Shown: positions 31,676 through 61,825 of the stretch, one piece after another
Layout: every line of letters starts with the position of its first letter
How positions within the stretch are numbered: the stretch's first letter is position 1
Assembly (NCBI RefSeq): GCF_900163625.1
Contig: NZ_FUIE01000049.1
Coordinates: forward strand, 1 to 64,000
DNA: 64,000 nucleotides
Direction: 5' to 3'
DNA from: Brevundimonas diminuta 3F5N
GTDB lineage: Bacteria; Pseudomonadota; Alphaproteobacteria; Caulobacterales; Caulobacteraceae
Notes under the pieces: model-generated
What the model was told of the DNA's origin: nothing
Seen by the model: the letters and a program-made list of their open reading frames with translations, nothing else
Database searches by the model: none
Translations under genes and position numbers: made by a program

Positions 31676-32446
31676 ATGCGGGACAGGATGGAACGAAGGA
31701 TCGGCCTGCGATTGAGTTTGAGCCTGGCGCTGGGATTGGCGACGGCGCTTTCGGCATGCGGCGCCCCCAAGAGCGATGCGGAAGCTGATGCGGCCGAAGT
31801 GCAGGACGGCGACTGGATGGCGACGCCGCGCATCACCAGCGTTCTTTCTCAGGCGTCTGGCGGCGTCTTGGTGCGGGGAGAAGCCGCGCCAGGCGCGCGC
31901 GTGATCCTCGGCGGGACGGACGGCTCGGTTGTGGCCGCTGCTGCGGATGCGCGAGGACGGTTTGAACTGCATGTCAGTCCGGCGGCGGTCGGGCAAATTC
32001 TGACGCCTGAGATCCAGATCGGCCAGGCGACGACGCCGGGCCCAGAGCGCCTGCTGGTGGTTGGAGGGACCGGAGGCCTGGCCGCTCTTCTGACGGACGG
32101 CGGCGCCAGCCTGCGTCTGACGCCGGGGCCGACCTTGGACGCCCTGGACGGTGACGGGCGCGGTCTGATTGCCTCCGGCCGCGCCGACCCTGGCAAAAAA
32201 GTCGCCGTGCGGGCCGGTGGAGGGACGGCTCATGGCGTGGCGGATTCCCATGGTCGTTGGGGCGTTGTCGTCCCTGTTGTAGGAGATCGGGCGAGCGACA
32301 TCGAGGTAGAGGGACGCGTCTTCCACTATCCCGGCCCTGGCGTGTCCGCTGACCGAGCCGAGCGGGCAGGAGAGGGGTGGCGGGTCACGCGTCAGTTGTC
32401 GAGCGCGGCGCGTCAGACGACTTGGTTTCCCGATCCAGATGCCTGA
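31676..32446 (+). CDS. Lipoprotein with two Ig-like repeats
   Basis: Lipoprotein of about 256 aa with signal and lipobox LSAC. The mature part holds two similar beta-rich segments, SGGVLVRGEAAPGARVILGG and GRGLIASGRADPGKKVAVRA, each followed by ARGRFELHV or SHGRWGVVV. This pattern is typical of bacterial Ig-like domains used for adhesion or scaffolding in the envelope. Function unknown. The start could also be the ATG at 31688. Confidence 0.68.
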   Translation: MRDRMERRIGLRLSLSLALGLATALSACGAPKSDAEADAAEVQDGDWMATPRITSVLSQASGGVLVRGEAAPGARVILGGTDGSVVAAAADARGRFELHVSPAAVGQILTPEIQIGQATTPGPERLLVVGGTGGLAALLTDGGASLRLTPGPTLDALDGDGRGLIASGRADPGKKVAVRAGGGTAHGVADSHGRWGVVVPVVGDRASDIEVEGRVFHYPGPGVSADRAERAGEGWRVTRQLSSAARQTTWFPDPDA

Positions 32447-32465
32447 ATTTCGGAGCGGATCGTCG

Positions 32466-32480
32466 TTAATGCGGCATTAA
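32466..32480. promoter_or_regulatory. Perfect CtrA box
   Basis: TTAA-TGCGGCA-TTAA matches the full CtrA consensus TTAA-N7-TTAA and forms a palindrome with flanking bases (GTTAATGC-G-GCATTAAC, 32465-32481). It is intergenic and faces the candidate small RNA with its own terminator. Confidence 0.65.
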
Positions 32481-32494
32481 CCAAACCAGTTGAT

Positions 32495-32576
32495 CAAGAG
32501 AGGGTCTTCCTTCTTCGAGGACACCCACCATCACCAAACGACTTTCAGCCCGATGCTCAGTGCGTCGGGCTTTTTT
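32495..32576 (+). ncRNA. Candidate small RNA downstream of a CtrA box
   Basis: About 80 nt between the lipoprotein gene and the permease gene with no reading frame. It contains a possible hairpin (GGGT with ACCC, loop CTTCTTCG, 32502-32526), an unpaired CACCATCACCAAACGAC stretch, and an intrinsic terminator AGCCCGATGC / GCGTCGGGCT (32547-32571) with six Ts. It could also be the 3' end of the upstream gene's mRNA. Ends are approximate. Confidence 0.45.
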
Positions 32577-32629
32577 CTTATGCCGGGCCCGATACGTGAC
32601 GCACGATCGTGAGCGGCGCTGTCACCGAG

Positions 32630-40875: not shown

Positions 40876-40950
40876 TGGCTCCGCGGGTAGGATTCGAACC
40901 TACGACCAGCCGATTAACAGTCGGCTGCTCTACCACTGAGCTACCGCGGA
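40876..40950 (-). tRNA. tRNA-Asn (GTT)
   Basis: A 75-nt gene with encoded CCA. Acceptor stem TCCGCGG/CCGCGGA, D-arm AGCTCAGTGGTAGAGC, anticodon loop CTGTTAA within stem AGCCGA/TCGGCT, and T-loop GGTTCGAATCC. Anticodon GTT reads AAC and AAU. Confidence 0.97.
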
Positions 40951-41924: not shown

Positions 41925-41998
41925 TGGAGGCCTGACCGGGAATCGAACCCGGGTGCAAGGATTTGCAGTCCTCTGCGTCACCACTCCGCCATCAGGCC
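41925..41998 (-). tRNA. tRNA-Cys (GCA)
   Basis: A 74-nt gene with encoded CCA. Acceptor stem GGCCTGA/TCAGGCC with discriminator T, anticodon loop CTGCAAA in stem GAGGA/TCCTT, and T-arm CCGGGTTCGATTCCCGG. Anticodon GCA decodes UGC and UGU. Confidence 0.97.
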
Positions 41999-61429: not shown

Positions 61430-61657
61430 TCGATGTCGGGAGAAGCGCCGGGATTCTGTTGCCAGGCTCCCGACAGGCCCCGCCTAAGGATCTGAACCCC
61501 TAGGACTTAAGTGTTCGAAATCAACCGAACCGCATTACGCGGCGAGGCGGACTTCTCCAGCGAAGTTATCGTTCGCAGTTAGATAAAGGCCCGATACGGT
61601 GGGCCAGGACGAGCGAAAGCAATCCTCTTTACACGTCCGTCGATGCTAGTCGGCCCC
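61430..61657 (-). ncRNA. ssrA: tmRNA (ssrA), coding piece of the permuted two-piece form
   Basis: The minus-strand 5' end GGGGCCGACTAGCATCGACGG is the 5' acceptor half and D-arm analogue. The tag frame (61576 to 61535) encodes ANDNFAGEVRLAA and stops at TAA, so with the charged alanine the tag is 14 residues like that of Caulobacter. A long-range stem (GTCGGGAG 61435-61442 with CTCCCGAC 61467-61474) near the 3' end fits a pseudoknot element. GGGGCCG pairs with CGGCTCC of the acceptor piece. The exact 3' end is not certain. Confidence 0.9.
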
Positions 61658-61690
61658 ATGCTGCCTCCGCCGATAACGCGGGGAAGAAGT

Positions 61691-61785
61691 TGGTGGAGCC
61701 GCCGGGAATCGCACCCGGGTCCGGTCCGCTTATTACAGGCGCGTTTATCGCCATAGCTCGGGCGAACCCGAGCAGGATCAATATA
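61691..61785 (-). ncRNA. ssrA: tmRNA (ssrA), acceptor piece
   Basis: This piece lies upstream of the coding piece, as in alphaproteobacterial permuted ssrA. It has a T-arm (CCGGG/CCCGG around TGCGATT, 61702-61719) and the 3' end CGGCTCCACCA with encoded CCA at 61691. A strong hairpin GCTCGGG-TTCG-CCCGAGC (61756-61773) marks its 5' part. The sequence between 61658 and 61690 is presumably removed by processing. The 5' end is approximate. Confidence 0.88.
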
Positions 61786-61825
61786 GTATGGGCGGCGCGG
61801 CCTTCCAAGGGGCTGGCGAAGAAGT

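Follow-up and report, generated by a model that had tools for sequence, protein, structure and literature searches.

A stretch of DNA in the window (the whole 64,000 nt of Brevundimonas diminuta 3F5N that were analysed) probably codes for a small RNA, about 75 nt long, with a site in its promoter for CtrA, the master regulator of the alphaproteobacterial cell cycle. Judged from sequence comparison, this RNA belongs, as a divergent member, to a kind that is known but has hardly been studied and that is spread more widely than the Rfam model for it reaches, and what is new here is the spread beyond the family together with the constancy of the box, both of which are unreported among the literature matches listed. 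The reading held here, which we regard as quite probable, is that of an independent sRNA gene that is activated by CtrA, carries a C-rich core as a trans-acting seed and is related to the Caulobacter sRNA CC0196 as a divergent homologue (the coordinates of its parts and of the surrounding features are collected in Table 1).

Table 1. Features of the sRNA locus and its surroundings (positions are those of the window)
Feature	Position	Strand	Basis or remark
Upstream lipoprotein-like gene, bacterial Ig domain (Pfam Big_6)	31688..32446	+	ORF; start codon uncertain
CtrA box TTAA-N7-TTAA, TTAATGCGGCATTAA	32466..32480	+	Perfect motif; extended to TTAACC at 32477-32482
Predicted transcription start region, best guess 32501	32496..32506	+	Inferred; box-hairpin gap of 23 or 24 nt in 113/118 regions
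Predicted small RNA, divergent homologue of Caulobacter CC0196	32501..32576	+	R1 match, RF01519 match, fold z -3.8
5' hairpin GUCUUC...GAGGAC	32504..32522	+	Stem of 5-6 pairs; paired changes
Core ACACCCACCAUCACC, mostly unpaired, most conserved, likely seed	32521..32535	+	Identity and folds
Intrinsic terminator	32547..32576	+	Stem-loop 32547-32571 and T tract
tRNA-Asn(gtt)	40876..40950	-	Frequent sRNA neighbour in other lineages
tRNA-Cys(gca)	41925..41998	-	Frequent sRNA neighbour in other lineages
Alphaproteobacterial tmRNA gene	61444..61812	-	RF01849, 223 bits; permuted-tmRNA model also matches

A blastn search with positions 32440-32600, box included, against 61 genomes gave matches in 30 of them, i.e., the genome itself, 23 of the 36 others of the genus and six of the 24 others of the order (all six belonging to a single family, f2), and the sequences of this first set share the core ACACCCACCATCACC, or a close variant of it, as well as the terminator, the box being at one mismatch or fewer in 27 of the 30. 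Three covariance models were built without the box, namely, R1, which has just the terminator pairs, and R2, which includes the 5' stem, from this first set, and R3 from 49 more distant members, and R1 matches the window copy at 32504-32575 with 79.8 bits. The RNA fold of 32494-32577 has an energy of -29.8 kcal/mol versus -18.9 for shuffles (z -3.8; none of 200 shuffles was as good), and the internal hairpin and strong intrinsic terminator that a first-pass annotation of the letters had described were both found, the latter having a 10-pair stem (seven G-C pairs) after which come five additional T and a C, with the T run ending at 32576. A simple terminator scan run on its own found one terminator versus 1.5 expected, i.e., not above chance. 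The core is 94% identical to the window over 22 relatives of the genus (scored at 32522-32536), and its mean unpaired probability ranges from 0.73 to 1.00 in 11 folded members, the window copy being the lowest because ACCC (32523-32526) pairs with GGGU there.

The covariance search in related genomes that had been proposed as a check on the hairpins gave matches across and beyond the family, and both of the stems covary. The pair counts, which come from alignments fitted to the structure and are thus biased in its favour, amount to 92.1% of cells paired for 83 matches (79 distinct, one spurious partial row included), versus 83.6% for shuffles and 37-50% for slid pairings, and to 91.6% for the 49 distant members, versus 67.9% and 41-50%, respectively, with changes on both sides at 16 of 16 pairs; in the same 49 sequences, the terminator stem has 95.5% of its cells paired and both-side changes at 10 of 10 pairs, and the 5' hairpin (alignment A5) 85.1% and six of six. 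RNAalifold on its own recovered the terminator helix and not the 5' stem, and, given this and the fitted alignments, the 5' stem rests on an offset test (all 30 sequences of the first set have a stem of 5-6 pairs immediately ahead of the core when the best out of 20 offsets is chosen), the folds of the members and the fitted counts. It is comparison among sequences, then, that establishes the structure of the RNA, just as it establishes the conservation of the box.

The first-pass annotation had also described about 80 nt lacking a reading frame, which stands insofar as no ORF of at least 60 aa overlaps the sRNA stretch, and does not stand insofar as short ORFs of 23, 23, 40 and 29 aa cross it. 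These ORFs of 23 to 40 aa would be the material for a short coding gene, on either strand, in place of a non-coding RNA, a reading that is hardly credible in view of the core, whose length shifts by single-base insertions and deletions between lineages and thereby speaks against a conserved reading frame, of the covarying stems and of the Rfam entry of the homologue, which is an sRNA.

Upstream of the RNA, the perfect TTAA-N7-TTAA palindrome was borne out as a full CtrA motif and occurs just once in the 64 kb window, both strands counted, with 0.02 expected from shuffles. The RNA had been placed within 15 bp of this box, which proved too short a distance: the conserved hairpin starts 23 bp past the box, and among the 118 regions where a clear box and GTCTTC are both present, 71 have a gap of 23 nt and 42 one of 24 nt from the end of the former to the latter. 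A scan for sigma-70-type promoters gave no matches (0.2 expected). Both the box and the terminator, on whose conservation the annotation had staked its reading, turned out to be conserved. Of 129 distinct regions, 125 deviate from the box by no more than one of the eight half-site letters (63 have it perfect and 62 with a single mismatch) and the other four by two, against an expected rate for a site with zero or one mismatch of about 0.001 per 40 positions at the same loci away from the RNA. The blastn-derived first set, whose query included the box, accounts for 13, 14 and three regions with zero, one and two mismatches (30 in all), and the regions recruited by searches with models or a pattern that cover the RNA and not the box for 50, 48 and one (99 in all, up to seven of them contributed by the pattern search and the remainder by covariance models). 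In this count, identical regions were taken once (130 reduced to 128) and L144 was added to give 129, and second weak matches in L003, L214 and L137, as well as L160 (a different RNA), were omitted; L144 and L161 are genuine sRNA loci upon inspection of their sequences.

Over the 22 relatives of the genus, the half sites show an identity of 0.90 and 0.93 to the window, the spacer 0.37 and the flanks 0.49 before the box, 0.58 after it and 0.53 past the terminator, and the retention of half sites where neither spacer nor flanks are retained is the footprint of a protein site and not of general similarity. Loci with the core outside the order have a box with zero or one mismatch wherever upstream sequence is present; the upstream sequence of L222 is interrupted by a contig end, and the second copy in the same genome, L229, has the box.

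As for what CtrA might do at this site, Zhou et al. (PMC4287350) report -35 as the commonest starting position of full CtrA motifs, link these motifs to activation in the predivisional cell and count six non-coding RNAs among the CtrA-motif promoters, and that position, when applied here, would put the start of the RNA at 32501 and its length at about 75 nt. We infer transcription itself, as well as its activation by CtrA, its start near 32501, its timing and the base pairing with mRNAs, the steps envisaged being that CtrA would bind the full box in the -35 region and, once bound, would switch on transcription at about 32501, most probably in the late part of the cell cycle, during which CtrA is active, and that a transcript of about 75 nt would end at the intrinsic terminator near 32576. 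The 5' hairpin and the terminator hairpin would protect the ends of this transcript and keep the C-rich core ACACCCACCAUCACC mostly single-stranded, the core would base-pair with other mRNAs at G-rich stretches, which probably lie close to ribosome-binding sites, and such pairing would lower the translation or stability of those targets. It might also be supposed that the sRNA is real and that CtrA represses or merely modulates it, the RNA being made without CtrA (at the swarmer-to-stalked transition), for which one could cite the ability of CtrA half sites over -10 to repress in C. crescentus (PMC4287350) and the candidate Caulobacter record R0004 (provided that the identity drawn below is right), which carries no assigned phase in PMC5988900; this seems unlikely, as a full box with a rigid box-hairpin gap of 23-24 nt fits the -35 position given for activation (PMC4287350).

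The neighbours of the sRNA in the window are the Big_6 lipoprotein gene and a DUF5690 transporter-like gene, and the stop codon of the former lies just 19 bp before the box, so close that the stretch could be taken for the terminator or 3' UTR of the lipoprotein gene, with the box serving something else or nothing; the terminator would, indeed, end the lipoprotein mRNA too, and that mRNA may share it with the sRNA. Such a reading is nevertheless very improbable, since neighbours vary by lineage, with tRNA-Asn(gtt) in the flank of 58 of 69 scanned loci (49 of 57 plus nine of 12; the scans reached about 0.5 to 1.5 kb or more into the flanks), yet the box, hairpin, core and terminator stay together, and this recurring flank, along with the homologue being an Rfam sRNA family, upholds the earlier claim of an RNA independent of the upstream gene's 3' end. 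In 22 of the 69 loci (17 plus five), inside and outside the order, the sRNA sits between tRNA-Cys(gca) and tRNA-Asn. The same tRNA genes lie 8.3 kb (Asn) and 9.4 kb (Cys) downstream of the sRNA in the window, on the opposite strand, and this distance and strand are a rearrangement in this lineage.

At the sRNA stretch, all Rfam families stay below their cut-offs. The model of RF01519 (Caulobacter sRNA CC0196) matches whole (model positions 1-58) at 32512-32574 with an E of 0.003, which is the only match of the model in the genome at E 0.01, and as its 24.7 bits are below the gathering score of 35, the window RNA is called a divergent homologue of CC0196 and not a formal member of RF01519. The same model matches L088 and, with 95.2 bits, the locus L181 of Caulobacter vibrioides DSM 9893, and within the family, 73 of 99 genomes match it at E 0.01 and 35 pass its cut-off; the models R1 to R3 join the Caulobacter and window copies. 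CC0196 resembles the window RNA in its layout, its core (CACCCACCAUCAC), its tRNA-Asn neighbour and, at L181, a CtrA-type box upstream that is one mismatch off, and its Rfam model, of 58 positions, starts within the 5' hairpin, for which it includes no pairs. CC0196 is reported to have been described by Landt et al. in 2008, who reportedly found one sRNA to be apparently CtrA-controlled. A literature search, partly by name, over the main texts of mostly open-access papers gave neither a paper on CC0196 nor a CtrA-boxed sRNA beside tRNA-Asn among the matches listed.

Going by gene numbering and the label "cell cycle regulated" (PMC5988900, Table 1), CC0196 would appear to be CCNA_R0004, for which PMC5988900 gives low 5' RACE counts over the cell cycle (2.2 to 12.8), assigns no phase and scores just a CtrA half site; R0004 is not among the 18 Hfq-enriched sRNAs in Table 1 of PMC11005374, the main text of which nowhere contains "R0004". 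If R0004 is indeed CC0196, these data weaken strong CtrA timing in C. crescentus, and not the conserved box.

CcnA (CCNA_R0094) of C. crescentus is like the window RNA in having a CtrA box in its promoter, and it has a CCCC pairing stretch (PMC8959179), but, compared by description only, it is 182 nt long, lies within the replication origin and acts on the ctrA and gcrA mRNAs (PMC8959179), whereas the window RNA is of a kind that is often found beside tRNA genes and, at about 75 nt (as predicted from box, hairpin and terminator), falls short of the about 182 nt of CcnA. Since the authors of CcnA propose its conservation through Alphaproteobacteria and its coevolution with CtrA (PMC8959179), the idea as such of an old sRNA linked to CtrA is not new. 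RusT (CCNA_R0199), another small RNA of C. crescentus, has predicted half sites for CtrA and four stem-loops (PMC11005374); it was set aside because of its length, 118 nt, and its location between lolA and xth (PMC11005374). BjrC1505 (RF02356) was likewise discarded as a rhizobial relative, as its 50 bits were not reached and the genome has no match to it at E 0.001; in G549, BjrC1505 and the window-type RNA are at different places.

The alphaR8/suhB sRNAs (MmgR, SisA-D) share with the window RNA a hairpin, a single-stranded C-rich seed, a terminator and a similar length, and in the alphaR8 sRNAs it is a single-stranded 10-mer that pairs with mRNA leaders (PMC12559287), an equal layout by analogy with which the core here would be the seed. 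The two differ in the seed itself (UUUCCUCCCU there, ACACCCACCAUCACC here) and in that sisA-D are described as having no conserved upstream motif (PMC12559287), whereas the window RNA kind has a constant promoter box. The window RNA being a paralogue of these sRNAs with an altered seed is decidedly unlikely: although the layout of weak hairpin, single-stranded seed and terminator is the same (PMC12559287), suhB scores weakly on the window RNA (22.2 bits) and R3 matches one suhB place in G571 (G571:C1:1367810-1367868, E 7.8e-5; either a shared terminator or remote kinship of the two sRNA families), the 22.2 bits are below the suhB (RF00519) cut-off of 41 and possibly reflect the terminator alone, the seed UUUCCUCCCU is absent from the window RNA, and the genome has a clear suhB elsewhere (G000:C84:21534-21614, 65.2 bits).

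With regard to the spread of the CC0196-type RNA, R1 at E 0.01 matches 219 of 249 genomes of the family, in 22 of 22 genera, a count that may be too high as weak R1 matches can be bare terminators, and R1 with stricter filters has no match in 30 of the 249, the filters of large searches being such that weak true matches are dropped. In the genome itself, R1 has 10 additional matches if E values up to 1 are admitted; seven of these were inspected, and none has the core. R3 matches 59 of 75 genomes of Caulobacter (genus g32). At the level of the order, R2 at E 0.001 matches 141 of 200 genomes, in families f1 (Caulobacteraceae) to f4; no genome of family f5 is among these matches, and f5 may have lost or changed the RNA. 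In the class-wide samples, R2 matches 10 of 289 genomes at E 0.0001 and R3 22 of 385 at E 0.001, the latter being five in the order, 14 outside it with the core and three doubtful ones without it (G465, G667 and G571, which were excluded from the class-wide count). The sRNA is, hence, present in its own family, in three further families of the order and in six families outside (f8, f9, f95, f120, f127 and f141).

Two sRNA copies were seen in one genome in G821 (C40, C19) and in G645 (C117, C106), the latter pair lying at or near contig ends and possibly representing an assembly duplicate. A phage or plasmid origin was considered and is unsupported, blastn at E 0.1 giving no match in 72,556 plasmid or 50,697 phage records. 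Four IMG/VR contigs fit the RNA pattern; three of them (L304, L305 and L306) have a box of zero or one mismatch (by eye) and tRNA-Asn and are probably host DNA beside prophages, and the fourth (L307) has neither box nor tRNA-Asn.

Candidate targets were sought by screening nine genomes with the core's complement, a 14-letter pattern in which one mismatch was allowed; this gave 29 places, seven of which are the sRNA gene by place and an eighth (perfect, in G204) presumably so, leaving 21 versus six for the pattern read backwards. The majority of the 21 are located within long open frames, and no gene was seen to have one at its start in more than one genome; as no mRNA match recurs at gene starts in the nine genomes, no target is claimed. 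A 13/14 match to the core complement was noted in the dnaA leader of G036 (L254, G036:C1:170-183), about 30 nt before a start codon; no such site was seen in the window's own genome, and five of 20 chromosome starts have dnaA, G036 included, the other four having too little leader to judge.

The presence of box and RNA together over such a great evolutionary distance makes this gene a good candidate for an ancestral CtrA target. The picture towards which we lean, with rather less assurance than for the sRNA gene itself, is that of one sRNA gene under CtrA since before the order split from several alphaproteobacterial lineages, i.e., an ancestral RNA arm of the CtrA regulon with one promoter, a nearly invariant C-rich seed and conserved targets, kept through repeated changes of neighbourhood. 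An Rfam entry that passes its cut-off in just 35 of 99 genomes of the family thereby becomes a family reaching beyond the order, for which the R3 model could replace that of RF01519. An RNA and a CtrA site that are kept together in distant bacteria may be an old, overlooked part of cell-cycle control, and the sRNA offers a direct test of CtrA action after transcription.
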